A stretch of DNA of 64,000 nucleotides, from contig OX465587.1 of NCBI GenBank assembly GCA_950022655.1, forward strand, positions 35,707,153 through 35,771,152, given 5' to 3'. Positions 15,600 through 51,575 of the stretch are shown piece after piece (position 1 is the first letter of the stretch; each line of letters starts with the position of its first letter). The translations under genes and the position numbers were made by a program. The notes under the pieces were generated by a model. It saw only the letters and a program-made list of their open reading frames with translations, was not told the origin of the DNA and searched no databases. This DNA comes from Alentia gelatinosa (Eukaryota > Annelida > Polychaeta > Phyllodocida > Polynoidae).

Positions 15600-18015
15600 A
15601 AGGAATAAGTAAGGAGCATCACAGGACAGATTTGAAGGAGCTAAGGGCATTGGCATGGAGGGAATATGAAGCCAGATACAAGTGCACGGCTCAACTTCAA
15701 CCCAGGGCAGATACTGGAATGCTGCGGTGCCATAAAATCTGAACTATTCCGTTCAATCTCTCAGTCCGTTCCTCATGTCAATCAAGCCAAATCAAAGGTA
15801 TACCAGCGTAAAACTCACTCTCCAAACAGATTCGTGAGGCCCTCCACGAAAGACCATTCTCCGAAATAAACACATGACCTGTCGACGAGGTCTGGTAACA
15901 TGGTCGGGCTTACTTTAAAAGGAAAGACTGATGTGCCTTTTGATTGTTTATGAGATGGTGAAACTAGATGTAATGACGTCCCCTTGTATTTTCTGCTTAG
16001 ATATGAATGTCTAATAGGTATATTTTCCATTTGAATTCTGCAAGAGGCTTTCCATAACTGTGGCTATACTCTACGGAGAACCAGACTTAAATCTTAAGAT
16101 ATAAGTACTGGTAAAAATCACACCGTGAGGTGGGAAGTGGTGGTCCTACAGTTTGGAAATTGGCGTGCATTCCTTTTTAGAATCATTGCATATTGTGCGT
16201 AGAAAAGGACTAGAGGCGGGGTGAAATATTTCAGTAATCATGTGTAAATACTTAATTGATGATTGTTTTCCTTGGGGTTCAATCATGCAAACCGCATACG
16301 TCACTTTATCACTTCCCTTTTAATCCATATTTTCTATACTGTATCAACTCATTCTCTATTGGTGTGCTAATTGTTCTTAAATACTCGTATAGTGTATTTT
16401 TAATATTTAATTATTGTATACATCAGTTATGATTTTTAACCTATATCATTGGCGAGTCCAAATATCTACACAGCTATATTGAATAAAATCATTATACATA
16501 TAACACATTTCTATGACAGGTAGATGAATAATACAATTGATGAACGACTGGGAAGGTATTGATTAAAATATCTAGTGTCTATTTGACATTCTGAATGAAC
16601 TGATTGAAAAAACATAATATGAAAGTAAATGACAAGATATGAAGATGGCTCTTTAAAGATGTTTAGTAAAAGATTTTATTTCAATCTGACACTCTGTATC
16701 ACCTTATTAAAAAACATCAAAAGGATTAAAAGATCTGAAATAATATTACATTATATGAGGATATTTTGCTGGCTCTTAATCACCCATCTCCTTGTAATTG
16801 CATTGGGTGTTTAATAAAGTAATAATATAGGTAACGTCAGAAATACTATAAACATCTACAGCAAAAGAGCTGCTCTCCTGAGCCTCTCACAGGTTTTAGT
16901 GTCGATTGAACCTCATTCCCCATTTCTGTGGTAAGTTACGTCATTTTTCATCCCTCCTGGGGTTGTCGGTCGGAAACCACTCGTTCAGTTTTATGGTCAA
17001 TAGCTCTGAAACCGCGAAACGCGCAACTACTTAACCTAAATGTTCGCCATATTGACGTTCCACTTCTCGCGCGCTCTCGCCCACTCCCGCGAGAGTTGCG
17101 TTTTCATTCACTTGAGTCAAGTATGACACGAGACTGACGTCCAATCAACGTGTACTGGAGATGGAGATTAAACCTCAGGTTCAATTGTCAAATTATAAGG
17201 TACTTAGGCACGTATAAATTTAATGTATTAATAAGAGCGCATGATTCGAGTTCCTGGAGAGGTTTGTAGCAGTTGGATACGTGTGGTTTATAAAGATGGA
17301 GAGATTATTGTGAAGAAGTGAGCATGAATGTGAGGTGCTGTTACAACTGTGAGGTTATGTGTGAAATCAAGCTGTAGGTCAAGTTGTAGGTCAAGCTGTA
17401 GGTCAAGTGTGAGGCCAAGTTGTAGGTAAACCCAGCGTATACACAAGACGATTATAGGCGGCAATTCTTGAATTTTACACCACCTGACGACTTTCAGCTA
17501 TCCATGGCTAGAAATCGGTACATATAAAAAGTGTAAACGCTTGAGGAAATTGTTGGGTTGATGACTACTGTGGCCGATATCACCTAATCGAGTGCCACCT
17601 GACGACTATAGGCTAGAAGATCTACCGTCGTCACGTTTTAGTCGTCTCGTGTAAACGCCGGATTGATTGTCAGGTCGAGTTTAAGGTAAAGTGTGGCAGT
17701 GACAGACTGCATGTTGTGAGGCAAGGGTCTTGCAGCATGGAAGGATCTACAGTACAGTAGAGGGGACGGTTTCAAATATTTTAGATTCTCAAAGTTCTCA
17801 AAGTCAAGTGATTACCTACGAGTAAGCTCTACTCTAGGCTTCACCCATGGGATCGTAATCCAGTGTAAAGCTGGAGACACACAAAGCGAGAAAGGCAGCG
17901 ATTTCTGGACTCGCCAACACAAAATGGCGTGTATGTGAGCTATTATTTCATATTTCACCTGATTATTGCTTCTGAAACGCTATATAAGCGGTGGGATATA
18001 TTACTATGAAAAAAA
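15600..18015. other. Non-coding stretch, no supported gene
   Basis: Mostly AT-rich with short random frames. 17368-17430 has a small tandem of GTAGGTCAAGCT/GTAGGTCAAGTT. 17440-17660 contains two copies of a CACCTGACGACT motif. Around 16955-17110 there is a CpG-richer patch with GCGCGCTCTCGC. No exon could be defended. Confidence 0.45.
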
Positions 18016-18019
18016 ATTT

Positions 18020-18302
18020 AAAGGTTAAATGAGACTTACCTTGGTTAAGATGATATTTGACCTAAAGTCTATGAAGTTGCAAGGTCGTCGGATTGATCAA
18101 CAGAGATACGGCTCTCGCCGGGTACCAGCAGTATTCAACAAACCTACGGAGCACAGGTAAACTAACCCCAGATCAACACCAAAAACCCTGGGCAGGGAAA
18201 AACTAAAGGGGGGGACTGTTGATCAATCCGACGACCTTGCAACTTCATAGACTTTAGGTAAAATATCATCTTAACCAAGGTAAGTCTCATTTAACCTTTA
18301 AA
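18020..18302. repeat. Hairpin element related to the DIRS terminus
   Basis: Arms of about 83 bp (18020-18103 and 18216-18302) are nearly perfect inverse copies, from AAGGTTAAATGAGACTTACC to GTCGTCGGATTGATCAACAG. The 112-nt spacer starts AGATACGGCTCTCGCCGGGT, which also occurs in inverse orientation at the right end of the DIRS element (29065-29092). The hairpin therefore carries DIRS-terminus sequence and abuts the DIRS left end directly. It may be a non-autonomous or rearranged relative. Confidence 0.6.
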
Positions 18303-18341
18303 GTCTATCTCATGTTGCTGGTCGTCGGATGCCAACAGAGA
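18302..18341. repeat. DIRS left inverted terminus
   Basis: Reverse complement of 29088-29127. Contains GGTCGTCGGATGCCAACAGA, a variant of which (GGTCGTCGGATTGATCAACAG) also sits in the adjacent hairpin. Confidence 0.75.
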
Positions 18342-18394
18342 CTTCAAAATTTTACCTGGGCTCCACTGGAGAAGGTCCAGCCGATTGTAGAAGT

Positions 18395-19140
18395 CTAGGC
18401 ATCCTTCTCCATCCCAAGAACTGTCTCCTGGAAAGTAGTATCATCAGAGACCACCGAGCGCTTGTAAAACCTTGCGAAGGTATTGGCATTGGTCCATCGC
18501 GCTTTCCTCAGGATAGTCTGCATTGGTAAGTCCTTCAAAGCAGCCTTCGAGGTCGCCGCTCCCCTAGTCGAGTGGGCCTTAAAAACCTGTGTGTCAACGC
18601 CTGCTTCAGCCATGGTCGTTTTCAACCACCTAGCCACCGTGTCTTTAGACGCTGGGTGAGGGTCCTTCCCCAAAGTAAGCCAGAGTTGAGTATGATCACC
18701 CCGAAATCCTTTTGTTAAATCTGCTCGAGGGGTTGTCCTTCCCTATTGTGTTTAACCAAAGACCTTAACTGAAGAACCACGTCCTCGTCGTTCCAAATAA
18801 TATCCTCCACATTCAAAGCATGCAAGGTTTGACTCCTCTGTGCCGTGGACAACGCTAACAGCATCAGGGCCTTAAAAGTCAATTTCCTAATGTCTAGAGT
18901 CCGAAAAGGGGACCACTTCTTAAGCAAATTCAAAACGGTGTTAACATCCCACGTACGCTGATATCTCGCCTGAGGCGGCCTGGTATTGTAAATACCAGTC
19001 AAGAGTCTGGTAACCATGCTATGGTTTCCTACCGTAACCCCATCAATCTTATCCACATAAGACGAGAGAGCACTCCTCGCTGTGTTCACAGCTGAATAAC
19101 TCAGTCCTTGTTTGTGCAAAAAAGAGGCAAAATTTGTAAG
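18395..19140 (-). pseudogene. DIRS tyrosine recombinase, C-terminal part (broken)
   Basis: This is the catalytic half of a phage-integrase-type tyrosine recombinase, which in DIRS elements integrates the circular cDNA. The first arginine lies in LSTAQRSQTL. After an in-frame stop and a frame change near 18674-18715 the protein resumes with KAHSTRGAA, giving the H-x-x-R box, and FARFYKR, giving the tyrosine nucleophile. So the R, H, R and Y residues are all present but not in one frame. The upstream part, KWTLFCVENSIRPNKP and following, is 6.5 kb away at 25716-26015. The split point falls exactly between two consecutive codons of the family's N-terminal domain, which proves a later insertion. 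Confidence 0.8.
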
Positions 19141-19297
19141 ATATAAAAGATGGCCGCGAGGTAGAAGGATGTGTGGTGTCGCAGCTCCGTACTCCAACCG
19201 CAAATAACCCTACTATCGAGACGTCTTCTCACAAAATACCTGTGACATATATTGGATTCCTGTCCTCTGAACGGGGTGAACGCCTTGGTTGAGGAAA

Positions 19298-20626
19298 ATG
19301 CCTCCCGGTAAAGTAACTAGATCCAATTCCTCGACTACATCGACGATGAACAACGAACAGGTGAGCGAAAATTCGAGCATTGCCGCTCTACAACAGTCAA
19401 TAGACATGCTTATGACCAATGCAAAGAAAGATAGAGAAGAGGCGAAGAATGAATTACGTGATGGACTACTGAAAATCGAGAAAAAAATGGACGAGCAGAG
19501 TGAAAGTATGAAGGATTTTAACGAAACAGTGGAAGAAAGGGTAGAAGGGTTGGCCGCAAGACTTGACGACAGCGACACAAAATATGTCGAATTGGAGAAG
19601 CAGGTACAGGACATACATGAAGAAACTTGGAACCCAGAACTGATGTTCGAAAAAATGATGGATAAAATTGAAAAACTGGAAACACGTGTTGCTTTTCTAG
19701 AGGATGACAGACGCCGATCCAACCTCCTTATCGACGGTATTACCGAAACAGGGGACGAAAATGTCAAACACAAAGTCTTGGATTTATTCTCCGATTTGAT
19801 TCAACCACCAGCGGGAGCCGTCTCGCCAGTCGAGGCGGCCTTCAGGGTTGGTATCAAACGCAATCAAAGAGCAAGAACAATTCTAGTCAAACTGTCATCT
19901 CAAGTAATAAAAAGTGAACTATTCAAGAATATCTACAAGCTAAAGGGGTCTGCCAAGTGGAAGGATGTATTTATTGCCGACGATTTATCTCCAGCAAAAC
20001 AGTCGGAAAGGAATGAACTAAGATGTCTGGCAGCATACGCGAAACAACTTGGTCACAGCGCGGTAGTCAAGGGCCCGAAGCTAATTGTCGACAACGAGAC
20101 GTACCAATTCAGAGACATCGGGAAATTGCCCAAGGCAATCACGCTCGAGGCAGCTAAAATGGTCAGGGTGAGTGACGGATGGGCCTTTCAGTCGCACCAC
20201 TCGATGTTGTCTAACATGGCTGAGTGCTCTATCGAGGAAGCGGGTCACACGTGGTCCTCAGCTGAACAGCTGTTCTGTTACCGCAAAGCGGTGGCACATG
20301 GGGACTTAAAACTCGCCACTAAAGTGAAGATTTCTGAATCAGGCTACGAAGCAAAGCGACTCACCAAAGTGATTAAGACGACAAAGGAGTGGGACGATTC
20401 GAAATTGCAGGTAATGGAAGAGGTAGTTAAAAAGAAATTCGACCAAAACGACGGATTAAGAGACGCCCTCACCAAGATCAACGGCCACTTATATGAGGCA
20501 ACCCAAGACCGCTACTGGGGGTGTGGATATGGACTGAATGATTCAAAGAAAATCAACACCCAAACTGCTGCTGGTAACAACCTGGGTAGAATACTGGAAA
20601 GGATCCGCGAATCATATAGGCAGTAA
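19298..20626 (+). CDS. LINE ORF1 protein: coiled coil, RRM-like, C-terminal NADAR domain
   Basis: 442 residues from ATG at 19298 (the open frame also extends a few codons upstream from a TTG, which I do not use). Residues about 30-145 are charged heptad-like sequence (KKMDEQSESMKDF, MMDKIEKLETRVAFLEDD), a coiled coil for trimerisation as in LINE ORF1 proteins. Next comes RRSNLLIDGI and an RRM/Transposase_22-like nucleic-acid-binding region to about residue 280. Residues about 293-440 are a full NADAR (PF08719) domain: SHHSMLSNMAE, WSSAEQLFCYRKA, a central WDDSKL, KKKFDQN, LYEATQDRYWGCG and GNNLGRILERIRES, all family hallmarks in the right order. NADAR proteins are known to reverse guanine ADP-ribosylation. 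A role in guarding the LINE's RNA or cDNA from host ADP-ribosylation is my inference. Confidence 0.88.
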   Translation: MPPGKVTRSNSSTTSTMNNEQVSENSSIAALQQSIDMLMTNAKKDREEAKNELRDGLLKIEKKMDEQSESMKDFNETVEERVEGLAARLDDSDTKYVELEKQVQDIHEETWNPELMFEKMMDKIEKLETRVAFLEDDRRRSNLLIDGITETGDENVKHKVLDLFSDLIQPPAGAVSPVEAAFRVGIKRNQRARTILVKLSSQVIKSELFKNIYKLKGSAKWKDVFIADDLSPAKQSERNELRCLAAYAKQLGHSAVVKGPKLIVDNETYQFRDIGKLPKAITLEAAKMVRVSDGWAFQSHHSMLSNMAECSIEEAGHTWSSAEQLFCYRKAVAHGDLKLATKVKISESGYEAKRLTKVIKTTKEWDDSKLQVMEEVVKKKFDQNDGLRDALTKINGHLYEATQDRYWGCGYGLNDSKKINTQTAAGNNLGRILERIRESYRQ

Positions 20627-20646
20627 CAATCGACATACCGTCTAAT

Positions 20647-21351
20647 ATGGCTGCATCGAGGTTTTGGGAAAACCAACATGAGGGAAATCCGATTGAATGG
20701 TCGAGGTGGTCTCCAAAGCCGAGAAACGTCATTATGGCGGACAGCAGGGGCAGGAAACTGGAAAGTTTGCAGTGCTCTGATACAGGGAGGAGAAATAGAG
20801 TTTCTACATATTTTCACCCGGGGGCAAAGCTACAGCAAGTAATTGTCAAGTCGTACCATCATCTTAAAAGCTACCCCCGCGATAATGTGTATATCATAGC
20901 TGGTGTCAACAATATTACTGAAAGGCAAGGGAAATCATTCGTTTGTAAATGGGAAAATTCAACCGACCTGTGTAGTTACCTGACGGCCTATACCGAAGTA
21001 GGGTTAGATTGGCTGGATTTCCATTTCCCGCACGCCAAAGTGATTATTTGTCCTCTCATTGGACTGTCTTTAGGGCGCTGGTCCATCAACTACACCAAAC
21101 AGAAACAAGACCTTGTAAATGAAGCGGTTGTAAATTACAATGCCTACATCACTAAAGAAAATGATGAAAGAAACCTCATGACGCCGTGGATTGCTAAACC
21201 GGTTCATACGCCACGACATGGTCACTATGTGCACAACATGGGACTTCTACACGACGGTCTACACCCGTCAGATGAACTCGTTTCTATTTGGGAAAATGAA
21301 TTGATCAAATGCTTTGAGGTAAATACATTGGCAACTAGCCATTATGGGTGA
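20647..21351 (+). CDS. LINE-encoded SGNH/GDSL-esterase-like protein
   Basis: 234 residues, ATG 20 nt after the ORF1 stop and in another frame, so probably translated by re-initiation from the same RNA. SGNH blocks are visible: IMADSRGRKL near residue 30 (block I serine), HPGAKLQQV (glycine block), AGVNNIT near 85 (block III asparagine) and HDGLHPSDEL near 207 (block V Asp-x-x-His). All four name-giving residue types are present, so catalysis is plausible. CR1-type LINEs are known to carry an esterase-like domain, but normally within ORF1. Here it has its own ORF. Substrate unknown; membrane or lipid association has been proposed for the family. Confidence 0.75.
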   Translation: MAASRFWENQHEGNPIEWSRWSPKPRNVIMADSRGRKLESLQCSDTGRRNRVSTYFHPGAKLQQVIVKSYHHLKSYPRDNVYIIAGVNNITERQGKSFVCKWENSTDLCSYLTAYTEVGLDWLDFHFPHAKVIICPLIGLSLGRWSINYTKQKQDLVNEAVVNYNAYITKENDERNLMTPWIAKPVHTPRHGHYVHNMGLLHDGLHPSDELVSIWENELIKCFEVNTLATSHYG

Positions 21352-21947
21352 TAAACCATGTACTTCGAGGGAATCATTAGGTGAATGGTATTGTCAATGC
21401 GATTCAACAATGTTATAGGTAGAAAGATAACGTCGTTGTCATTCTACCTAGACCCCTCAAGGTATAGGTCGCTAGTCTAAAATCATAAATTTCCCTATTC
21501 TCCCTTTCGTGTCTACTTTACACGGTAAAAATTCCCTTTTATATAAATAATGGATCAAAATTAAATTAGGGGGCTACGTTTCAAGTTCTAAACTACTTTT
21601 ACTGATGATGATACCCCATTTGGTCACGTATTCCTTCGTGACCGCCAGTCTCCCACATGTTGGTATTCGTTTTTTCTTTCCTTTTTTCACTTACAGAGCA
21701 AGAGTCTCTGATTTTTCGTTAACTGTTACAATATTTCTTACATGATGGTGGGGAACGGGGTTGCTAAGCCATATCCCAGATCTACCATTAGGCCAAAAGG
21801 TGATGCCTGCTCCTATGAGAGCGCTGATTATACGGGAAAGCACTAAGTGCAGAACTCCCACGCAAAATGAGTTTGGGGTTTTATGGAATTTTTCACATGT
21901 GAGTGTAACAGGTTGTATTGTGTTATCATACCAGATAGGACTAGTAA
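21352..21947 (+). other. LINE inter-ORF spacer, about 600 nt
   Basis: No open frame of note. AT-rich with scattered stops between the esterase ORF and ORF2. It may hold a re-initiation or internal promoter signal, but I see no motif that proves it. Confidence 0.5.
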
Positions 21948-24900
21948 ATGTCAGTTGAAGAAGAAAAGGAGAGGCTGAGGGGGGAGAGGGGACTCAGGAT
22001 TGGACATCTAAACGCTGCTAGCCTTCTCAGTAAATTTGACCTTATTAAATTGCAACTAACTGATATTTTCGACATAATCTGTATTACTGAGTCAAAGTTG
22101 AATGACAGGATACCAGATGCATTAATTGATCTTAAGGGTTTTTCAAATGTGAGATTGGATAGGATATGGATCGACCCTGCAACGGGGCTGAAAAAAGGTG
22201 GTGGCGGTATTGCTATCTATGTTTCCAACAGATACACTTATCAAATTATGGATAATAATGAATTGAGCTCATCTGTGATTGATTTGGAATCGTTGTGGAT
22301 CAAGGTTCACAGAGAGTCAATGAGAGATGTAATCGTGGCTGCTATATATAGGCCTTGGGAAGGCAACTTGGGAAATGCCATAGAGTTATTGAAAGATAAG
22401 ATTGATATTGTCAACACCGAACAAAACGAATGTACAGTGACTGGTGATTTTAACCTGAATTGGATGAACAAGCAAAACGCCCATGTTAAATCCTTAAAAA
22501 ATTGGATGAACTGTAAAGGCCTCAACCAGGTTATTGAAGACTTTACCCGCTGTACTGATACCTGTAATTCTTGCCTAGATTACGTAATAACTAATGCCAA
22601 ACACATCAAATATTCCGGAGTGCTAGACTTAAATCTGAGTGACCACTGTGTGGTTTATATTGTTTCGGGCCAAAATAAACGAGTCTACGAAAAAATATAT
22701 TTTACTGGTCGATCACACAGAAACTACGACAAAAATACCTTTCAAGATACCTTATCAGGACTAAATTGGGATACCTTTTATAACGAGTCAGATCCAAACA
22801 AATGCTGGAAAATTATGTATGACTACATTATCGAAACTTTAGACAAAATGTGCCCAACTAAGGAATTCAAAATTAATAAAGCAAAGGAAGACTGGGTTAC
22901 AAATGAAATCTTAGAGAGAATAATAGACAAGGATAAGGCCTTAAGGAAATTTAAAAAAACTAAAATAACAGCAGATTATGTAAGGGCTAGATCATTACGA
23001 AATGAGGTTAAACGCTTAATATATAGGGCAAAAGCTACTTATATCAAGAACAAGCTGGATTCATACTCTAAGGATGGGAAAAAATTTTGGAAGGAAATTA
23101 GTAACATCTTACCCACTAGAACTGCTTATTCTCCAATATCTCTTATCGACGAAACTACTAATAGGAAAATTCCACCAGCAGAAACTGCAAGCTATATAAA
23201 TACCTTTTTCTCAAATATAGGGCCAAAGTTAGCAGCAACGAAGAAAAGGGAATGGGTAAACCATATCGATGAAATCAATCCAGATAAAATAATAGAGAGT
23301 ATTGTAATCAATCAAGATGAGTTGTTGAGTGCCATCAAGGAGATAGATGTATGGAAGAGCTCTAATACTGAAGGAATTTCCTCGCGTTTCTTAAAAGATG
23401 CCTTCTTAGTACTTCATGAACAGTTACTTTATTTGTTTAATCAATCCCTAACATCGGGCATATTCCCAGAATCTTGGAAGATGGCCAGAGTCACCCCACT
23501 AAAAAAAGCAGGGAACTCAACCTCAGTTTCTAATCTACGTCCAGTATCCTTATTACCCCTAGTCGGAAAATTAATTGAAAGAGTTGTGCACAATCACCTA
23601 AAAGATTTTTGCGAAAATAATAACATCTTAGAAAATGTACAAGGTGGTTACAGAGAAAATCATTCTACCCTCAACACTAGTGTCATGTTGACTGAAGACT
23701 TGCTCCAAGGTATTAATGAGAAAAAGATATCAATTGTTTGCTTTTTAGACCTATGCAAGGCATTTGATACGGTAAATCATGTTATACTGTTAAATAAGCT
23801 ACATCTTTTAGGCTTTAGAGGCAAAATTTATAACTGGATTAGGAGTTATTTGGTAAACCGTGAACAAACAACCTGTGCAAATGGTGTTATCTCTGAGTCA
23901 CATAAAGTTATATGTGGCGTCCCGCAGGGGTCCATTCTGGGACCCCTATTCTTCATCTTGTATATCAACGATATTACTAAATCCTTACGAAATGCAAAAG
24001 CCCTTTTATATGCAGACGATACGGCTATTTATCTCACTGGGAACGATATTCACTCACTTTATCAGCAAATGCAGTTGGAACTAAATTATATAGTAAATTG
24101 GTGCGATGAGAACAGGTTGACAGTCAATGCCAAAAAAACAAAATATATGTTTTTTGGGTCTTCACATGCTATTGCAAAAATTGTATACCAACCTCTTTAT
24201 ATGAATGATCAAGTTTTGGATCATGTTTTCCATTTCAAGTATCTTGGCTTTACATTGGACCAATACCTAAATTTCAATAAGCACCTAGAAGGTACTATTA
24301 ACCCTTTAAGGGCGAATGATGCCTTGAGGCATCATCCAGGCCAGGGCGAATGATGCCTTGAGGCATCATCCGGCCCAGGGCGAATGATGCTTTGAGGCAT
24401 CATTTCTCCAAAATCTTCAAAATCGTTTTTAACAAAATATAATAGAGAAACATTATTCAAATTTTCACAGAATGTATGTATGATACCATTATTAGTATTT
24501 CTATTCAAAATAAATAAAATATTTAAGATTATATATCATATCCCGTGATTAAACAATTAAATTGTGGTTTTTAACGATTGTGTGCCCGTCCCCTAGCGGT
24601 ATAAAGTGTCACCAGCACCCGTCCTGCAGGCAGTAGCTTGGCCACAGGCACTTGTCCTTAAAGGGTTAATAAAGTTGCAAATAATTTATATATTCTTAAA
24701 AAAATCAGAAAGTACCTCGATGTAAAAACTGCATTATTGCTATATAAAACAATGGTTCTCCCCTATTATGATTATGGAAATGTTATGACTTACGGTAGCC
24801 GACAAGATTTAAAAGACCAGTTACAAATTAAGCAAAATCTGGGCTTACGAATGTGCTTAAAACAAGATAAATTTTCAAATGTTGTACAGCTTCACAGAGA

Positions 24901-25189
24901 TGCAAGAACTCCCTTGTTAAAAGATAGAATCGACATGCACTTATTGAACTTCATGTTTAAACTTCAAGATAATGTAAACCTTGTCAAAACGCCAACTAGG
25001 ATAACTAGACAGTTCGATGCGGTTACTTTCAAATTACAGAGACCTCGATGTGAAAAATATAAAACTGGTACACTTTACCATGGTGCTAACCTCTGGAATA
25101 CATATGATCGTAATGACAGAAAAATAACCGATTATAATAGATTTAAACTAAAGCTAAAGCGCAAGGCATTGGACAAGCTATGGTTATAA
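21948..25189 (+). pseudogene. LINE ORF2: endonuclease and reverse transcriptase, split by a MITE
   Basis: The first 801-codon part (21948-24353) holds an AP-type endonuclease: HLNAAS near residue 20, ITESKL near 46, GGGGIAIYV, GDFNLNW near 165 and SDHCVVYI near 232. Then comes a LINE reverse transcriptase: FLDLCKAFD near 598, GVPQGSILGPLFF, and the catalytic YADD near 687. At 24298 a TTAA-flanked MITE enters; its first bases add a short foreign tail and a stop. The native frame resumes at 24670 and runs to 25189, ending in the usual R/K-rich C-terminus. Removing the MITE plus one TTAA leaves the reading frame uninterrupted across the joint, so this is a single late lesion. Confidence 0.88.
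24302..24665. mobile_element. piggyBac-like MITE, 364 bp, TTAA target duplication
   Basis: Flanked by TTAA on both sides (24298-24301, 24666-24669). The termini are CCCTTTAAGGG and CCTTAAAGGG, matching piggyBac ends that begin CCC. Near the left end there are three tandem units of 33-34 bp (24308 onward), each with a small palindrome GATGCCTTGAGGCATC. No transposase. It is the lesion that splits LINE ORF2. Confidence 0.8.
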
Positions 25190-25714
25190 TTCTTCTGGAC
25201 GTATGGGGATTTTGCAGAACTTACGCAGTGTTTTTCTCGGGGTGTCCAATGGTCCGCTCTCTTCTAGGCCTTTCCTAGATTTGTTATGATAATCATATGT
25301 ATTGCAGATATATTCGTTTTTGAGCTATGTATCAACCTGATTATTTTCTCTTTTTCATTTATATCGGCGCCTTTATTGCGTAATCATGTTATGGTCATTT
25401 AGTAAAATACTTTAAATTGACGCCACTCGCACAAAACAATGACCCGATAAATTATGATGTTACATTGTATATAGGTATTACCTTGACATTATTCATGTGG
25501 TACAAAACACAAAATTAACAAAGGATTTTGTATTTCTTGTTGATTGTACTTGATGTTCTATTGTCTATTTGAAGTATACACTGGCTAAAGCATAGCTAGC
25601 CAGCCGATCAATTGTAAGGTTGTGACTGCCTCTGTGATCAGTCCAGCTATTCGTAGTTGAACAGATGGCAGTATAGAAATGGAAAAAAAAAAAATAAAAA
25701 AAATAAAAAAAATT
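25190..25714 (+). other. LINE 3' UTR and A-rich tail
   Basis: Non-coding, AT-rich, ending in an adenine tract with AAAAAAAT units (25682-25714). The recombinase codons resume at once on the other side. Confidence 0.7.
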
Positions 25715-25715
25715 T

Positions 25716-26015
25716 CATAACCTCAAATAAAGAAGGCTTATTTGGCCTAATGCTGTTTTCCACGCAAAATAAAGTCCATTTCTTCAAAGATACATCATAT
25801 TGTTTTTTAGTGGAGACTCTCCAGGACTGCATAAACAGCTCCGCCGTCTCGTCATCCAAACCCTGGGCAGTCAATGCCCGTTTTATATCAACCATGCAGC
25901 AAGGCGTAGGGGCCACAGATCTCCCGACACCGGATCCCTCAGGCTGATCCGTCCTAAGTCCAGTCTCCTCTTGGCCGTCCGCCTCAGGAGGCCTTCCCAA
26001 GGTTGCGCCTCCCAC
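25716..26015 (-). pseudogene. DIRS tyrosine recombinase, N-terminal part (cut by LINE)
   Basis: Minus-strand frame with SWRVSTKKQYDVSLKKWTLF and the SAM-like core-binding segment KPSLFEVMKF, typical of DIRS recombinase starts. It stops abruptly at the LINE tail. The next native codons (LTNFASFLHKQG) lie at 19140 and below. It continues in phase from the RNase H region upstream (25883-26392). Confidence 0.75.
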
Positions 26016-26392
26016 GACGGCGTAACCAAGATGCCCTCTGCCACATCCTTCCGGGCCTTCTGAAGAACTCTGAGAGCCAGCCTGAAAGGTGGGAAAGCAT
26101 AAAACCCATCAGTCCATTTGCATGAAAAGGCATCAATGAATTCCGCCCCCGGATCCGGGTGCCAACTACAAAAACGAGGCAGCTTAGCAGTAAGTCGCGA
26201 TGCAAATATATCAATACAACAGGGTCCTAACTTCTTGATTATCAGATCAAAGGTTTCATCAGGTAATTCCCATTCCGATGTAAAACAAGCTCGAGACTCC
26301 CCATCAGCTTCTACATTCTTTATTCCTGGTATGTGAGCAGCTATAACCCAGAAGGACTGTTTCTCACACATGTCCCAGATGTCCTTTGCCAC
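25883..26392 (-). pseudogene. DIRS RNase H tail and linker (frameshifted from RT)
   Basis: KDIWDMCEKQSFWV, AAHIPGIKNVEADGESR and CIDIFASRL...LPRFCSWHPDPGAE...YAFPPF are hallmarks of the DIRS RNase H C-terminus and the conserved segment after it. The frame differs from the RT ORF: at about 26385 sequence equivalent to the usual GG-T.S..CN.LA region is missing and the frame changes. The break is probably a small deletion. Confidence 0.75.
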
Positions 26393-27767
26393 CGTGGTTC
26401 ACATAGGCTACCGCCGTGGTGTTGTCTGATAAACAGCGAATTGTAGTGTGTGACAATGACTTTGCAAAACACCGAAGACCAAAAGCCACAGCTAGCGTTT
26501 CCTTTACATTAATATGTAACTCTTTTTCTTCCAAAGACCATTGTCCTCCCGTGGAGGTACCATCATGCCAAACTGCCCCCCAACCTGTGTCGGAGGCATC
26601 CGTTGTCAAAGTATACCGAGGTGACCGCACCCTGATATCCTTGAACCCATTGTCAATGTTCTTTTGCCACCAGTCAATATCCTCTAGACCAGCCTCAGAA
26701 ATATCCATGACTCTCTCATAGTTCCCCCTCTCTTTTTTCAAAGCCAGAATTTTATCCCTTTCCAGCCTCCTATAATGCGCCTCACCAAACTCAACACCTT
26801 TGGAATAGTCCACCATCAGACCAATCAGACTGGCTACTTGTCTGATCTTTACACGTGAACCAAACCCCAAAGACCTCGCCTGGTCATGGAATTTTTGCAG
26901 CTTAGCGACCGTGGGGGAGACCGTCATTCGAGCGGTGTCAATTACATAACCCAGAAAAACAAGTCTCTTAGTGGGCTCAGTAACACTCTTACTCCTGTGA
27001 ACCTTGAAACCCAGTTTCACAAGCAGGTTCAAAAGAGCACGAATAGTAATTTGACAGCGCTGCTCCGTTTCTGCCATAATGAAGGTGTCATCTATATAAC
27101 CAAACACCGAGTGTCCCTGCCTCTGTAAAAACGCAAAGACAGCCTTCAAGATCCTGGTAAACATTCTAGGTGCCTGAGCCAAGCCGTTAGGCAGGCAGGT
27201 GTATTGGTACAAAAAACCCTGCCACTCAAACCTCAAATATTTCCTATGGTCAACACGAATGGGTATCGAATAATATGCATCTGACAGATCCAAAGACCCC
27301 ATGAAAGCTCCTTCATGGACCATATCAAGAGCCGTCTGTAACGTCTCCATCTTAAAATGTTTGTAAGCGACCGAGTCATTTAATTCAGACAAATCCAAAA
27401 TCATACGCGAAGTACCATTTGGCTTAGGCCTCAGAAAAACATTAGACACGTATTGCCCCTCCACAGGTCTACATTTCTCTACAATGCCCCTGTCTAGCAG
27501 CTCAGCAACTACAACACTGAGATTCAGTCTAGCTTCTTTAGACAGAACAAAAGGCCTCGGCAGCTCACTTTGTACTGGGAGCTCATCAAAATCAATAGAG
27601 GCACCTTTCACACAGTCAATGATGTAAGAATCATGTGTAATTTCTAGCCATTCCAAAACATGGTAACGAGTACCCCCTGGCAAGAAAGTACCAAAGTCAG
27701 GCGAACAGAAGGAGTCACTCACCTGTGGCTTATTTACTGTGACCCCTTCCGATGAAAACCCTGCCAT
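26364..27767 (-). pseudogene. DIRS reverse transcriptase / RNase H
   Basis: 467 codons from ATG at 27767, overlapping the gag-like ORF by 34 nt in the -1 frame. RT motifs: LDLSDAYYSIPI, LPNGLAQAPRMF and YIDDTFIM (catalytic YIDD). RNase H motifs: TTDASDTGWGAVW, HINVKETLAV and LSDNTTAVAYVNHGG, then the frame is lost. DIRS RTs copy the element's RNA into a circular DNA that the tyrosine recombinase inserts. Intact up to the RNase H break. Confidence 0.85.
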
Positions 27768-28687
27768 GAGCGGTTGTAAGGCTTGTCCTTAGGCTTGTCG
27801 TTGCGCCACTTTGGCTTGAACTGTTTGTTCCGCCCTTTATAGCCAAAGTCTTTCTTGAAAAACTCTTTCCTGTCAGACTGGTCAAAACGTTTCTTTGACA
27901 TCTTGTCTGCTTGTCGAATTTCATCCTCTGCCTTTTTCATGGCACCATTCAGATCTTCACCCCCCAACCAATCCTGGGTAGCGGGATTATCTTCAGACAA
28001 AAGATTCCCCCACTTCTTGTCCAAGTTAAGTTTGAGGAGGTATCTGCGAGTAAAAGTTGTGTCAGACATGGCCCATGACAGCATCAAGTTACTGTCCATT
28101 AAGCCCACATAGGACTTCGCCAGTGCTGGCGCTTTCTCCCGAATCTCCGCATCGGGATTCCCCTTGGCCCACTGCTTCAAGTCAAAAAGCGTCTGGGATT
28201 GAATTGCTACAGCTGACATAGCCCCAACAATATTCTGTTGCGTGTCTGCAAGATACTTGTCCACATACAAAGAATCCTTCGAAGAGATTCGGCTGAAAAC
28301 TTTATTCAGCTTCGGCACTTTGAGCGTAGTCGCGTTTGCCGGCCGCGGATAGAGTTCCCTCTTGTCCCGCACAACATCCTTCTGTAATGGCGGACCAACC
28401 ACACGTGACAAAGTGCGAACCACCATTTCTGAAACTTCTGGGCCCGTCTTGTCCTCAGCATTAGTGATATGACAGAGACCCTCATGATAATCATCTGCCA
28501 CGTCCTTTTGGCCGTCCTTGGGAAGTGAAGAAGACTGTCCACACTCTAAATCTTCATTCGAAGAGTCCGAGTCAACATGACTGACAGCACCGGACGAGGC
28601 AGCCGGCGTGGTCGCACGCTTACGCTCCCTCTCATCGAGCATGATGGTTAGCATCTCTCGGAACTCATCCATCTGTGTCACAGACAT
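27734..28687 (-). CDS. DIRS gag-like protein
   Basis: 317 codons from ATG at 28687. Serine- and charge-rich N-terminus, a helical middle (NKVFSRISSKDSLYVDKYLAD...), and a very basic, K/F/G-rich C-terminus (KEFFKKDFGYKGRNKQFKP) suited to nucleic acid binding. No zinc knuckle, as is usual for DIRS gag-like ORFs. Position and composition, rather than a domain match, support the call. It appears intact. Confidence 0.65.
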   Translation of the reverse strand: MSVTQMDEFREMLTIMLDERERKRATTPAASSGAVSHVDSDSSNEDLECGQSSSLPKDGQKDVADDYHEGLCHITNAEDKTGPEVSEMVVRTLSRVVGPPLQKDVVRDKRELYPRPANATTLKVPKLNKVFSRISSKDSLYVDKYLADTQQNIVGAMSAVAIQSQTLFDLKQWAKGNPDAEIREKAPALAKSYVGLMDSNLMLSWAMSDTTFTRRYLLKLNLDKKWGNLLSEDNPATQDWLGGEDLNGAMKKAEDEIRQADKMSKKRFDQSDRKEFFKKDFGYKGRNKQFKPKWRNDKPKDKPYNRSWQGFHRKGSQ

Positions 28688-40319: not shown

Positions 40320-42138
40320 TTATCTCGGTGGGCTAGGACTGCGGGAACGACTAATTACGTCATCCTCATCTCCCTCGTCTGGCACGTCCACCTGAATCAT
40401 AGCCTCACAGGTTCGAGCACTATACCCCACATTAGGAAGAACCTTTTTCCTCTTACTCCTCTCTATACCATAGCATTTCTTATTCTTACAGCATAGTGAA
40501 AACCCTTGCTTCCCAATCTTTTCTCGAATCTTATAACCTGTTTTTGTAAGATACAAAAATACTACAAATCCCACTACTATTGCTAGGGCTACTATAAACC
40601 AAAACCACCAGGCTCTACTTGATACGCTAGCTTGTATAGTTTTTATTCTTGATACAATTCTACTACGAGGAGGGACTTCAAGGGCATTAAAGGAGGGAAA
40701 ATTTAACTCAGATATGCCGCTAGTCTGCCAAACTTTATGCGTTCTTATTGGGTACCGGGAAAAATTCAACCAAGACAAATCTACGGGCTGTGGTGGTGGG
40801 ATGGTTATGTTGTGGAAAAACCGAGTAAGGGGCAAGCCTCTAAGATTCCAGAAATCGGTGTCAAGTCCACATCGCTGGTCTACTTGGATAACATAACTTC
40901 CGGCAGTTAATTTTCCAGTAACTGGACTTTTATGAGGACATGCATAGTGGTAAGTTGTGTCTTCTGTTTCTACAATGAATCTATTTAGGGGAGTTGAGAC
41001 TATTCTAGATGGTGGCGGTCGCCCAGTGTAAAGTGTCACCGGACACTTGGCTTGTTGTTCCGCGTCTCCATTTATTAACCCATGCAAACACGGTTGTTGC
41101 CGTCTATCATACTTCACCCCTGATTTACACGCTCGCGGGTCTGGACCATAACATTCATACGGGAAATACAGATCCTCAGTTGTCAAATCTAGAACAAACG
41201 GTTGTGGCTGGCGGATTTTTATACATTTCTTCCCTTCACATACTGCCATGGTGTTTATAGTGTATAAACGCTGCTCATGGGACCCGAATAAAGGTGCTTG
41301 CAGGACACAAATGGCCTGGGAGTCGACAACTATTATCTTCTCCACCCGGACATAGGCATAGTAAGCTAGGGTATTAACTTGTAGGCCGTTATCTTTTGAA
41401 GAGAGTATTTTCTCCATTAATGGCACAGGCACTACTTGATCAGAAACAACTCGTGCTTCACAGGCGACCCGTACGCTAGAGGCCTCAGCCACCGCTGCTT
41501 CGTAACTAGTTAGATGTTCATCTATTAAATCCATCACCACCGTGAATCCCAGTACTACCCCATTATACTCAACAATAGGTTCCATATGACTCAGGCGTAT
41601 TATGTTTCCTTCTTGCGCGTTTTGCCTCTGTATTATTGAGTTTACAGTATGGGTCAACTTCTCTTCCTGCACTCCCAACAGGTTTACCTTGGCAACTAGT
41701 CCTATTTGTGTGTCTACCACACCCTCAATTTCTTCCGCCAATGCCAAATCTGCTGCCTGCAGGGCTTCAATATCGGCTTCAGTGGCTGTTCCAAATAAAA
41801 ATGAAGAAATTTTGCCAACTATATTCAAAAGTCCCCTTTTTCGTCGACTGACATGCCTTATCCGCGTCCGAATGACAGCAAGTCTTCTCAACAAATTTTC
41901 GGTGAAAGCCAGTGCATCTGTGTTAGGGTGGTTAAAATTATATCGCATTTGTTTTTCTCTTATGCGATTCTCTATACTGTCACACATCTGCAGCCATTTC
42001 ACATCCAGTGAATGGTCGGCCGTTAGGTATACGTAAACTTGGGCATAAGAGCGTATCTCTCTCACCTCCTCTTCGTGAGATATAATGGCCCCAGTTTCTA
42101 TCTTGCTTATCTCCTGTCCGCTGGATAGCGCCAGGCAC
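40320..42138 (-). CDS. env: Envelope fusion glycoprotein (env), baculovirus F-like, from a spliced mRNA
   Basis: The open frame runs from a likely splice acceptor (TTGTTTCAG, exon from 42138) to 40320. There is no good ATG at its start; a frame start at 42065 would be GTG. The first residues after the acceptor end in a small, hydrophobic LALSSG segment like the end of a signal peptide, so the upstream exon probably supplies the start. A furin-type RRKR site lies about 75 residues after the GTG codon and is followed by a glycine-rich fusion-peptide-like segment, as in insect errantivirus and baculovirus F proteins. A single C-terminal membrane span (WFWFIVALAIVVGFVVFLY) and an acidic cytoplasmic tail follow. 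No internal stops. Mediates membrane fusion in related elements; function here untested. Confidence 0.8.
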
Positions 42139-42150
42139 CTGAAACAAGAT
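42139..42150 (-). promoter_or_regulatory. Putative env 3' splice site
   Basis: Minus strand reads ATCTTGTTTCAG then GTGCCTGG, a pyrimidine-rich tract followed by CAG. It lies 19 nt beyond the pol stop. The donor is not identified; errantiviruses use one near the start of gag. Confidence 0.5.
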
Positions 42151-42156
42151 GAGGAC

Positions 42157-45100
42157 TCAGTTAGTACAGAGTCTCACCGTTTCCAGCCAGGAATTCCAAT
42201 TAATTTCAAAAGAATTAGGACACCCCCTGCTCTTACTTGAGGAAGTGTTAACAGCAGCTGCTGCCGGCGTAAGGATTGTGGACAGATGGGGGTTTGGGAT
42301 TAAGGGAATCGGGGTAGCTTCGGCGGGTGGAAGCCTTGATTCCTTACTCGTTGGGGCAGGCACTGGATCTACCTCCTCATACGACTTGGCTTCAGGAATG
42401 ACCCGAGCATTCCTTTGGTTAACTCTAACGACGCGTCCCGTTTCGAGTTCCTCTACGCGGAGACCTCCGTCATGATTGGAGATCACCCGGTAGCCGGGCT
42501 GCCACTTAGGCTGCCCCTTCCGGGGAAAGAGAGCGCGCACCGTGACAAAGGCCCCAACGGGTAAGCGTTTAGCCCGACCCGGCTCTTTTGTCTTATAGGC
42601 GGCTCTCGTTTCCAGGCGGAATTCACGCAATAGGCTCTGGGCTAGCCGTATTGCCTGTAACCTTTCACCTTCGTCAGGGTTTCCTGTAGTGGTTCGGGGC
42701 AGGCGCGCTTTCCTACCATACACTGATTGGTACGGGCTGATGCCGGCGGGACCAGCCGTAATTCTATACGCATATAGCGCCTCGGACAGGTACCTTGTCC
42801 ATTTTCGCGGGTCTCCCCCTGTTAGTTTCAATAGCAACTTCTGGATGGTTCCATTGAATCGCTCTACCATCCCATTGGACTGGGGATGATACGGCGAGGT
42901 CTTACGGTGTTGAACACCATTATTTCTCAGCCATTCCTCAAAATGGGACTCTGTGAATTCCCCACCATTATCAGTCACTACGGCTGTGGGGAGCCCATAT
43001 CTGGCCACTATCTCCCGTGAGAAGGCTTCCCACACAGTAGCAGATTTCTTTGATGCTATTGGTATTGCTTCTACCCAGCCAGTTAGATGATCTATACACG
43101 TTAACAGGTACTGTCGACCTCTTTGATCTCTAGGGAAGGGTCCCACCAAGTCCATTCCCCAGGTGTGGAACGAACACGGGGGCGTAGGCATCTGTCCCCT
43201 TGGGGCAGCAGCATTCGCCGGTGTGAGGGTGTTACATAACACACAGCTACCTATGTACTCCCTAATGGTTCTCCGCATTCCGGGCCAAAGGTAATTTTCT
43301 TGTACCCTCTTTAGGGTCTTTTCTGGGGCCGAATGCCCCACTTCCCCATGACAACGATCTACTACTTTCTTCCTATACTGCTGGGGTAACATCAACCGAG
43401 GATAGGTACCTCCGTTTTTAAATGGTTCTGCTATGCTATACAGGATTCCCTGATATACCACATAACGGGTTTCGTCTGTCCCCTGCTCAGCCTCAATGAA
43501 CCCATCTTTGAACTGTTCTTTCTGGAGCTTCTTCAAAGCCAGAGGATCAATGCTGTCAGTGTTCCAGACGTCTGGGGTTTCTGACGCCCAGGTCTCCTCC
43601 CCGCCTTGGTCACTATCTGGGGCTACACTTGCTATCCTAGACAGCATATCTGCTCGGACATTTAACTTTCCCTTGTGATACAAAATCGGGGCGGCATACT
43701 CGGATATCTGGATCGACCACCTTTGGAGCTTGGTATTCCTGATTTCTGATTGGAAAAGACACCTTAAGGGCTTGTGGTCCGTATGGATTTCAAAGGAGGC
43801 ACCCCCTCCCAGGTACGGGTGTAACTTCTTAAGGGCATACACAATAGCATAGGCTTCCTTTTCTATGATAGGCCATAATCGTTGACGATCGGACAGTTTG
43901 TGCGAGACATAATGTATGACCCGTTCTACCCCTTTATCATCTTTTTGGACAAGGATAGCACCAATGCATCGATCAGATGCATCGGTGTATAAGATGTAGG
44001 GCTTGTTAACATCGGGGTGCGCTAAGACAGGTGCTTTGGTCAAAGCAGCCTTCAGCTGGTCGAAGGATTTTTGATGTTCTTCACCCCAGATAAACTCGTT
44101 CTTTGGTTTCGTCAACTCCGTCAGTGGCACCGCAAGGGTCGCGAATCCTGGAATGCACTGACGATAGTATCCTGCCATACCAAGGAAACTTCTTACTGCC
44201 GATCTATCTTTTGGCGGTTCCATATCCCTTATGGCCTCAGTTTTCGACTCATGGGGGCGGATGCCCTCAGCATCGACCACATACCCTAGCAATTCTATTT
44301 GGGTCTTGTAGAAGCTACACTTTGATGGTTTTACCTGCAGACCTGCCTCTCTCAATCTGTCAAGGACCTTCCCCAGATGTTCTACATGCTCTTTCTCGTT
44401 CTTGCTATAGATAACAATATCATCTATGAACACCATGCAGCAGCGCCCGATGAGCCCTGTCAACACTTTGGTCATGGCTCGTTGGAACTGAGCCGGGGCA
44501 TTCTTTAAACCAAAGGCCATTCTGGTGAACTCAAAAAGTCCGAGATGACAGGTAAAGGCCGTCTTTTCGATAGAGGCGGGGTCCATAGGCATCTGCCAGT
44601 ACCCGGACTTAAGGTCTAGGGTGGAGAAAACCTTGGCCCCCTCTAGTGTGTCAAAGATATCTTGAATATAAGGCAGCGGATAAGCATCACCTTTTGTCAT
44701 TGCATTGATTTTACGGTAATCTACACAAAACCGAGTACCACCGTCCTTTTTCGGGACCAGGGTAATGGGAGACGCCCAGGGGGACGTGCTCGGCCTTACT
44801 ACCCCATCAGCTAGCATTTCTTGTACGCATTGTTCTACCTTTCCTCTTTTGTCCAATGGCATTCTATAGGGGTTCTGATGAATAGGGCCGCTGTCACCTG
44901 TGTCAATCACTGCTGGCGGCAGTGATCGAGCAACTCGGACTAGCGTCTCCTTTTCACTAAACACATCCCGATACCTCGTTAAGACGTCATTAACGAGGGA
45001 ACTACTCGACATTGGGACTTGGGATACAGACATTACAGGACCACAATACTGTGATGGATTAGTTACAAGCGGATATACTTTCTCTCCTAACCTCATTATA

Positions 45101-45549
45101 TTTTGTACAAAATCGATTACACATGCCCGGCGGCATAGATTGGACCCGATTAACAAATCGACTCCCCCTGCATTATCGCACACTAAAACCTCTGTAGGGA
45201 ATCCCCCTATATTGACAGTACAGGTACCCCTTACAGTCAGGGTGTGTCCGGTTATACTCCGCACCATGGGCGGTTCTTCTAAAGGAATAAACTTTGGCAA
45301 GCGAGTATACAGTTGAGCGGTTATAAGAGTATGTGTACTACCAGTGTCTATCAGGGCTGTTACCTGTATTCCTTCTACATCGAGTCGTACCCTAGGTCGT
45401 ACGGCTCCTGTCGCGCCGCAACAGCGCCCATCCCCTGGCCAAGGGGTGAGGGCTGAGGGCTTAGCTAGTTTCCCTGGTTGGCTGGAGGAGCCACAGGCGT
45501 AGGAAAATACCCTTATTTTGGCAATCATACCTCCAGTGTTGTTCTCCAC
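42157..45549 (-). CDS. pol: Pol polyprotein: protease, reverse transcriptase, RNase H, integrase
   Basis: 1130 codons open without a native ATG (the first codon of the frame is GTG), overlapping gag by 89 nt in the +1 frame. Aspartic protease ALIDTGSTHTLI near residue 68; RT with LDLKSGYWQMP, FGLKNAPAQFQR and catalytic FIDDIVIYS near 373; RNase H YTDASDRCIGAIL near 520 and IHTDHKPL. Integrase: zinc H-H-C-C (HGEVGHS, CVLC) near 730-770, then the D,D35E core (GMDLVGPFP, VVTDNGGEF, PYHPQSNGMVERFN), and a C-terminal segment after LPVGAFVTVR. All catalytic residues visible and no stops. This is the Gypsy order with integrase after RNase H. Confidence 0.92.
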   Translation of the reverse strand: MENNTGGMIAKIRVFSYACGSSSQPGKLAKPSALTPWPGDGRCCGATGAVRPRVRLDVEGIQVTALIDTGSTHTLITAQLYTRLPKFIPLEEPPMVRSITGHTLTVRGTCTVNIGGFPTEVLVCDNAGGVDLLIGSNLCRRACVIDFVQNIMRLGEKVYPLVTNPSQYCGPVMSVSQVPMSSSSLVNDVLTRYRDVFSEKETLVRVARSLPPAVIDTGDSGPIHQNPYRMPLDKRGKVEQCVQEMLADGVVRPSTSPWASPITLVPKKDGGTRFCVDYRKINAMTKGDAYPLPYIQDIFDTLEGAKVFSTLDLKSGYWQMPMDPASIEKTAFTCHLGLFEFTRMAFGLKNAPAQFQRAMTKVLTGLIGRCCMVFIDDIVIYSKNEKEHVEHLGKVLDRLREAGLQVKPSKCSFYKTQIELLGYVVDAEGIRPHESKTEAIRDMEPPKDRSAVRSFLGMAGYYRQCIPGFATLAVPLTELTKPKNEFIWGEEHQKSFDQLKAALTKAPVLAHPDVNKPYILYTDASDRCIGAILVQKDDKGVERVIHYVSHKLSDRQRLWPIIEKEAYAIVYALKKLHPYLGGGASFEIHTDHKPLRCLFQSEIRNTKLQRWSIQISEYAAPILYHKGKLNVRADMLSRIASVAPDSDQGGEETWASETPDVWNTDSIDPLALKKLQKEQFKDGFIEAEQGTDETRYVVYQGILYSIAEPFKNGGTYPRLMLPQQYRKKVVDRCHGEVGHSAPEKTLKRVQENYLWPGMRRTIREYIGSCVLCNTLTPANAAAPRGQMPTPPCSFHTWGMDLVGPFPRDQRGRQYLLTCIDHLTGWVEAIPIASKKSATVWEAFSREIVARYGLPTAVVTDNGGEFTESHFEEWLRNNGVQHRKTSPYHPQSNGMVERFNGTIQKLLLKLTGGDPRKWTRYLSEALYAYRITAGPAGISPYQSVYGRKARLPRTTTGNPDEGERLQAIRLAQSLLREFRLETRAAYKTKEPGRAKRLPVGAFVTVRALFPRKGQPKWQPGYRVISNHDGGLRVEELETGRVVRVNQRNARVIPEAKSYEEVDPVPAPTSKESRLPPAEATPIPLIPNPHLSTILTPAAAAVNTSSSKSRGCPNSFEINWNSWLETVRLCTN

Positions 45550-51241: not shown

Positions 51242-51575
51242 CCATCTATGCTTGTTTGTTTGGTTTGTTTGGTTTGATTTTACGTCCAGTCAACCATTAT
51301 AGGTCCTTTCCAGACTTTCTCAAGGTTCTTTTACAGCACAAGGGTGGTGATCGAATCTATGTGATGAATTCAGGTAGAAATCTCACCCCTACAAATTTAC
51401 CAGGTGAGAGTTCTTTTACTTCCCACACCACATAGACATGGTATGAGAAGGATGGCCTTTGTTATAGCAGTAAATCTACCACTGCTAGGGGTGGGACTCG
51501 AACCCACAAAGTCTTACAACCTTGGGGTTACAAGTCCGGTGCTCTAACCACTGAGCTAACTCCCCACCCCGATCT
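51242..51575 (-). mobile_element. tRNA-derived SINE, copy 2 (best preserved)
   Basis: On the minus strand GGAGTTAGCTCAGTGGTTAGAG is the A-box region and GTGGGTTCGAGTCCCACCCC the B-box, close to a real tRNA. The rest matches copies at 15247 and 54045. The tRNA-like part has a long anticodon-side insertion and no proper CCA end, so it is a SINE head, not a tRNA gene. Confidence 0.75.

Follow-up and report, generated by a model that had tools for sequence, protein, structure and literature searches.

A NADAR domain joined to the RNA-binding ORF1 protein of LINEs in the annelid Alentia gelatinosa and its possible role in ADP-ribose removal

NADAR domains have been described in several selfish elements. 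In the Pacific oyster Crassostrea gigas, the first open reading frame (ORF1) of several Tx1 long interspersed nuclear element (LINE) families appears to include a NADAR domain of the YbiA family, for which one passage of the source suggests a role in RNA processing (PMC12477816). Portions of the same work describe an Ectocarpus Gypsy lineage, likewise a retroelement that carries NADAR. Here we analyze a LINE copy in a 64,000-nucleotide stretch of the polychaete Alentia gelatinosa (contig OX465587.1, positions 35,707,153 to 35,771,152; hereafter the window) whose ORF1 product ends in a NADAR domain. Because of the oyster case, the presence of NADAR in a LINE ORF1 is in itself no novelty. Unlike the oyster elements, however, the window copy has a reverse transcriptase (RT) that is not of the L1/Tx1 type and a separate esterase ORF; another Alentia element (L043 with the adjoining L045) does resemble the oyster families in having an L1/Tx1-type RT. 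Among the papers listed in literature searches, none was met that reports NADAR in LINEs outside Tx1 or paired with a separate esterase-fold ORF, NADAR-ORF1 abundance in one genome, or the site conservation pattern described below.

The window ORF1 shares its coiled coil, RNA-recognition motif (RRM), and C-terminal domain (CTD) with the type II ORF1 proteins (ORF1ps) of human L1 and CR1/L2 subgroups, for which NADAR is not reported; the terms "NADAR" and "YbiA" are absent from the main text of PMC4120745, which also describes Jockey superfamily ORF1s as modular proteins that swap domains. An SGNH fold occurs in LINEs in the esterase ORF1ps of ZfL2-1 and CR1, but, according to the passages of PMC3905857 consulted, none of the esterase ORF1ps in RepBase was found to have an RRM, whereas the window LINE encodes esterase and RRM in separate ORFs. 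Positive-strand RNA virus polyproteins are another selfish RNA-based replicon with a NADAR domain (PMC9503650); a term search of that paper's main text finds no mention of retroelements. Nematode SNA-3, as described in part of PMC9303266, places eukaryotic NADARs in an RNA-processing protein, yet it has three of them and is an essential host trans-splicing protein with no transposon involved. The structures of P. nicotianae NADAR (8BAU) and E. coli YbiA (2B3W) match the window domain in fold and active-site Glu pair, but lack an ORF1p fusion, and the Glu-to-Trp loop is one residue shorter in the window. A passage of PMC11125620 describes what animal NADARs do physiologically as unclear.

The window ORF1 is an L1-type RNA-binding protein with a C-terminal NADAR domain, encoded in a three-ORF LINE. 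Its PF08719 score is 84.9 bits against a curated Pfam score of 35.1, and structure comparison with 8BAU and 2B3W reveals a YbiA fold in the NADAR part; score and fold together rule out a chance motif match as the source of the signal. This confirms the initial annotation, made from the letters alone, that a NADAR domain follows a coiled coil and an RRM-like part. The coiled coil, RRM, and CTD occur in the order that defines a type II (L1-like) ORF1p. A PDB sequence search with the N-terminal 291 residues alone gave no match, and none of 275 protein database candidates for the RRM-CTD region reached E ≤ 0.001. The element displays the endonuclease (EN) and RT domains, dispersed copies, and A-rich 3′ end of a LINE. 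Every one of 21 homologous database proteins carries a NADAR annotation, and in one (P0039) the stretch after NADAR shares 40% identity with the window RT.

According to the parts of PMC11543638 consulted, ADP-ribose is coordinated at its distal ribose by E43 and E125 and at its pyrophosphate by K50, R79, W89, R93, W133, and (through water) D130. In the E. coli C7 NADAR, D171 (the E125 counterpart) and K95 (the K50 counterpart) are required for efficient guanine de-ADP-ribosylation, although a K95R variant is still active in vitro (PMC11543638). Eight residues of the window ORF1 (E323, K330, K357, W365, K369, E400, D404, and W407) align with ADP-ribose-contacting residues of 8BAU, and we followed them through 32 ORF1s from the same genome and the 21 database proteins; L013, whose ORF1 is truncated and split, was left out of these residue counts and of the ORF1 frame counts. 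E323, at the E43 position, is Glu in 53/53 sequences, and E400, at the E125 position, is Glu in all 52 that cover it. Trp is present at W365 in 32/32 own-genome ORF1s and 14/21 database proteins, and Lys or Arg at position 369 in 32/32 and 16/21; D404 and W407 are retained in 28/32 and 31/32 own-genome ORF1s, respectively. Only 10 of 152 NADAR columns are invariant among 47 ORF1s, and these include E323 and E400. In tests on the same 47 rows (without P0018, L009, L011, L015, L029, and L037), 168 of 20,000 random NADAR column sets were as low as the eight named contacts including K330, and 79 were as low once K330 was removed. If K353 is also counted the figures become 28 without and 48 with K330; we excluded it because PMC11543638 in one place says that it makes no ligand contact. 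Alignment A1 omits L009, L011, L013, L015, L029, L032, L037, and P0018. Such conservation favors a site that binds ribose and is perhaps catalytic, whatever its exact ligand.

The 1.234-Gb genome (101 contigs) was searched with ORF1. Of 3756 first-look candidates the best 95 were scored, and 95/95 match at E ≤ 0.001 on many contigs. From these, 20 loci of 10 kb were picked, mostly for open ORF1 frames; their ORF1s are 38% to 98% identical to that of the window. ORF1 and esterase matches occur in 20/20 loci, RT in 19 (not L027), and endonuclease in 18 (not L027 or L028, with a stub in L012). An internal stop is absent from 19/20 ORF1 frames (the window plus 19 loci, mostly chosen for that), and 6/17 measured EN-RT frames extend at least 930 codons from the EN start. 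The ratio of nonsynonymous to synonymous substitution rates (dN/dS), estimated roughly by the Nei-Gojobori method for 17 chosen pairs, is 0.03–0.08 for NADAR in seven between-family pairs with finite dS, one of which is near saturation. The other pairs comprise five that are saturated and five young ones with few changes (0.05–0.53, one undefined). NADAR dN is lower than coiled-coil dN in 10 of 12 diverged pairs, and lower than RRM-CTD dN in 7. These comparisons show purifying selection on NADAR, and the domain is retained by the lineages that spread. The further copies and the low ratios both favor the initial annotation, which had looked to them for corroboration. No ORF1 without NADAR was found at 12 hand-picked places out of 81 RT matches, which had long open frames and no listed ORF1 match, a choice that leans against finding ORF1. 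Two hold a NADAR remnant; the ten with neither LINE ORF1 nor esterase in the 901 bases read are most likely 5′-truncated copies, and 5′ truncation is seen in L049 and L056.

The NADAR-bearing ORF1 is not confined to one type of RT. The window RT matches labeled human L1 entries from E 2.9e-14, R2 at 5.8e-14, and 8C8J, an entry titled simply RNA-directed DNA polymerase, at 1.2e-14. Membership of the L1/Tx1 group was rejected because this RT is not clearly nearer to L1 ORF2p than to R2, unlike another RT of this genome that is of L1/Tx1 type. It may be of CR1/L2/Jockey type, judging by motifs such as GVPQGSILGP. A PF08719 search of the genome gave 3136 first-look candidates, and the best 150, which were scored, all reach at least 99.9 bits, above the window's 84.9. 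Many of these 150 have repeated open-frame lengths (580, 620, 777, and 811), indicating several NADAR repeat families. Four were read in detail. In L042 and L044 the order is NADAR ORF1, GDSL-motif ORF, EN-RT; the second of these gives no Pfam match in L042 and a sub-threshold Lipase_GDSL_2 match in L044. Neither RT is of L1/Tx1 type: that of L044 matches 8C8J at 6.8e-15 and R2 at 8.4e-13, and the part read of L042 matches group II at 2.2e-8, L1 at 7e-7, and R2 at 7.8e-7. L043 with L045 has a NADAR ORF1 followed by EN-RT, whose RT scores E 5.9e-78 against human L1 ORF2p but only 1.5e-16 against R2. With hhalign, the window-family RRM-CTD-NADAR stretch aligns to L043 at E 4.3e-48, to L042 at 8.4e-33, and to L044 at 4.3e-29. 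These alignments show that homologous RRM-CTD-NADAR stretches accompany L1/Tx1-type RTs as well as others. Exchange of ORF1, of the kind described within the Jockey superfamily (PMC4120745), fits this pattern because the best hhalign match (L043) has the most distant RT, which is a lead rather than a phylogenetic test.

The fourth match, L041 (628–1356), is a 180-bit NADAR in a 242-residue frame with a Ser/Lys-rich C-terminus. It is probably a host NADAR gene, as the 1.8 kb read contains no other frame longer than 170 residues. No other row compared exceeds 34% identity to it, and by eye the Glu-to-Trp/Phe loop is one residue shorter in most aligned LINE NADARs than in this host-like gene (P0011 differs). 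In the free NADAR tree it falls among LINE rows, where long branches meet; an approximately unbiased test of one clade of 33 presumed LINE-derived NADAR rows versus the host-like gene and four standalone NADARs did not reject that clade (p 0.15).

A role ascribed to ORF1ps is the packaging of LINE RNA. ADP-ribosylation of guanosine in RNA was reversed by NADARs only, and not by the macrodomain and ARH enzymes tested, according to PMC11833690; since no other hydrolase family was found to reverse this modification, it is chemically plausible that the domain acts on LINE RNA. We propose that ORF1p would coat the LINE RNA and thereby bring NADAR into the ribonucleoprotein (RNP), where it would strip ADP-ribose, most likely from guanine bases of LINE RNA or cDNA and possibly from RNP proteins. 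If left in place, ADP-ribose would block packaging, translation, or reverse transcription. We assign a probability of about 0.4 to this reading of NADAR as an ORF1p-tethered ADP-ribose eraser in the LINE RNP, and infer every step beyond the fusion to an RNA-binding protein and the conserved Glu pair. The more specific proposal, that RRM-CTD-NADAR is an ORF1 module swapped between L1/Tx1 and other groups and working as an RNP-tethered guanosine-ADP-ribosyl hydrolase against host ADP-ribose on LINE RNA or cDNA, is tentative and somewhat doubtful. A retroelement counter-defence role for NADAR, first suggested in the initial annotation, is plausible, though conjectural: the fold fused to an RNA-binding ORF1p, the diverged copies, the Glu pair, and the chemistry support parts of the argument, and replacement of a lysine in most ORF1s examined speaks partly against it. 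The accompanying comparison with DarT-type systems is loose, as the window NADAR is YbiA-type and NADARs outside a DarT1 context are not efficient DarT1 antitoxins in the material seen from PMC11125620. Placement in the DarT-linked (BC4488) subfamily was also rejected, given Glu rather than Asp at the E125 position in 52/52 sequences and LINE ORFs rather than DarT as neighbors.

Several observations weigh against ADP-ribose erasure. K330, at the K50 position, is Lys in the window, but among own-genome ORF1s it is replaced in 22/32 (Lys in 10, Leu in 19, Met in 3) and among database proteins in 15/21 (Lys or Arg in six, one of them Arg). D404 is Asp in only 10/20 database proteins, and W407 is Trp in 4/20, with Phe in 16/20. 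When the two Glu are removed from the contact set, 1253 of 20,000 random sets are as low without K330 and 1903 with it; because the figures weaken in this way, the Glu pair is the selected core, and the contacts to the pyrophosphate do not clearly stand out. YbiA, moreover, also acts on riboflavin-pathway intermediates (PMC11543638, consulted in part), so ADP-ribose need not be the substrate. An ORF1 tree of 52 rows, built with the K330 column and the truncated P0018 omitted, shows at least three changes of Lys/Arg state, and Lys is retained in the window's subfamily, where the full residue set is kept. Where lineages have replaced the lysine that binds pyrophosphate, as many have, we read this as a ligand shift or a weaker enzyme. 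The initial annotation had named loss of catalytic residues in most copies as a reason to abandon it, and this applies by half: the lysine is mostly gone, and the Glu pair has stayed.

Because the lysine is so often lost, the main rival to an eraser is an ADP-ribose reader or targeting part that is not a hydrolase. Such a domain might, for example, recruit the RNP to DNA breaks that carry ADP-ribose and at which target-primed reverse transcription begins. It would account for ORF1s in which the fold and both Glu stay while the lysine needed for efficient hydrolysis in the E. coli C7 NADAR is replaced. We nevertheless consider a reader rather unlikely, since the Glu at the E125 position, whose E. 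coli C7 NADAR counterpart is needed for catalysis, is invariant and the window's subfamily retains the lysine. That the domain targets small molecules (free ADP-ribose derivatives, NAD-derived signals, or other N-glycosides) in place of nucleic acid or protein is less probable still. It was suggested for phage NADARs in a passage of PMC9503650, it agrees with the riboflavin intermediates that are YbiA substrates (PMC11543638, in part), and conservation in the site centers on the Glu pair at the distal ribose instead of the contacts to the pyrophosphate; the fusion to an RNA-binding protein speaks against it, and macromolecular targets are favored for eukaryotic RNA virus NADARs (PMC9503650, same review). 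A passive structural extension of ORF1p that binds no ligand would suit the domain exchange of modular Jockey superfamily ORF1s (PMC4120745, in the part consulted), but is improbable when E323 and E400 are among the few columns without variation. Chance fusion, assembly artefact, or recent capture of a host gene by one copy can be dismissed: the 95 scored candidates (best of 3756) all match across many contigs, which together with the same neighbors in 19/20 loci contradicts single-copy capture, the 21 database homologs are all NADAR-annotated, and the host-like NADAR shares no more than 34% identity with any row it was compared with.

The window copy is 99.1–99.2% identical to copy L009 over 19150–24301 and 24666–25703, while the flanks are not alike. 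Its RT frame (ORF3) is interrupted by a 364-bp insertion that contains three GGGCGAATGATGC repeats. The junctions of the LINE are A-rich, and no clear target-site duplication was read there.

Table 1 Features of the LINE copy in the window
Feature	Positions	Strand	Remarks
Whole LINE copy	19150..25703 (approximate ends)	+	Starts ATGGCCGCGAGGTAG, finishes in A-rich tail; homology to copy L009
ORF1, 442 aa, coiled coil, RRM, CTD, NADAR	19298..20626	+	
ORF1 coiled-coil helix, residues 27-139	19376..19714	+	Model secondary structure
ORF1 RRM and L1-type CTD, residues 140-290	19715..20167	+	
ORF1 NADAR domain, residues 291-442	20168..20623	+	
ORF2, 234 aa, SGNH/GDSL esterase fold	20647..21351	+	S33, G59, N88, D203, H206
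Non-coding spacer, esterase ORF to EN-RT ORF	21352..21947	+	
ORF3 first part, endonuclease and RT	21948..24301	+	PF03372 E 1.2e-7; PF00078 E 8.2e-37
364-bp inserted element	24302..24665	+	Inverted CCCTTTAAGG ends, flanked on both sides by TTAA, absent from L009
ORF3 last part, C-terminal region of RT protein	24666..25190	+	Directly after RT part in 19/20 fetched loci

SGNH/GDSL hydrolases are characterized by Ser, Gly, Asn, and His blocks. ORF2, separate from the RRM-bearing ORF1 of the same element, displays both the fold and these blocks: S33, G59, N88, and D203 are invariant in 13 sequences, and H206 is nearly so. These 13 (alignment A2) are the window and 12 of the 20 loci; L017 and L028 were left out for stop codons, L027 was dropped alongside, and L009, L011, L013, L015, and L016 were never taken in. 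A Pfam scan found no family match for the window ORF2, and all seven matches from a PDB profile search of the esterase ORF are at chance level. The spacer between ORF2 and EN-RT is 341–743 nt in 15/16 copies where it is measurable, about 600 nt in the window and similar in most diverged copies.

Elsewhere in the window, a minus-strand retroelement with an RT occupies 18000–19149 and 25704–28687, and the LINE seems nested inside it; this outer element looks DIRS-like, and a putative recombinase part lies on its left. A Gypsy-type long terminal repeat element with gag and pol ORFs and one ORF matching Baculo_F, an envelope-like protein, lies at 40320–46993 (minus strand). A tRNA-like match of 37.2 bits at 51486–51565 (minus strand) is possibly the head of a short interspersed nuclear element.

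Many LINEs keep a NADAR fold and both Glu in the protein that packages their RNA, an indication that ADP-ribose or related chemistry takes part in retrotransposition. One such element also supplies an RRM-type ORF1p and an SGNH-fold protein together, a pairing not found within any RepBase esterase ORF1p in the material consulted from PMC3905857. Pairs in which these ideas can be tested are provided by lineages that differ in having the lysine or not and by elements that combine different RTs with a common module. If the module does work as an RNP-tethered hydrolase, this would imply a host defence by nucleic-acid ADP-ribosylation in these organisms.
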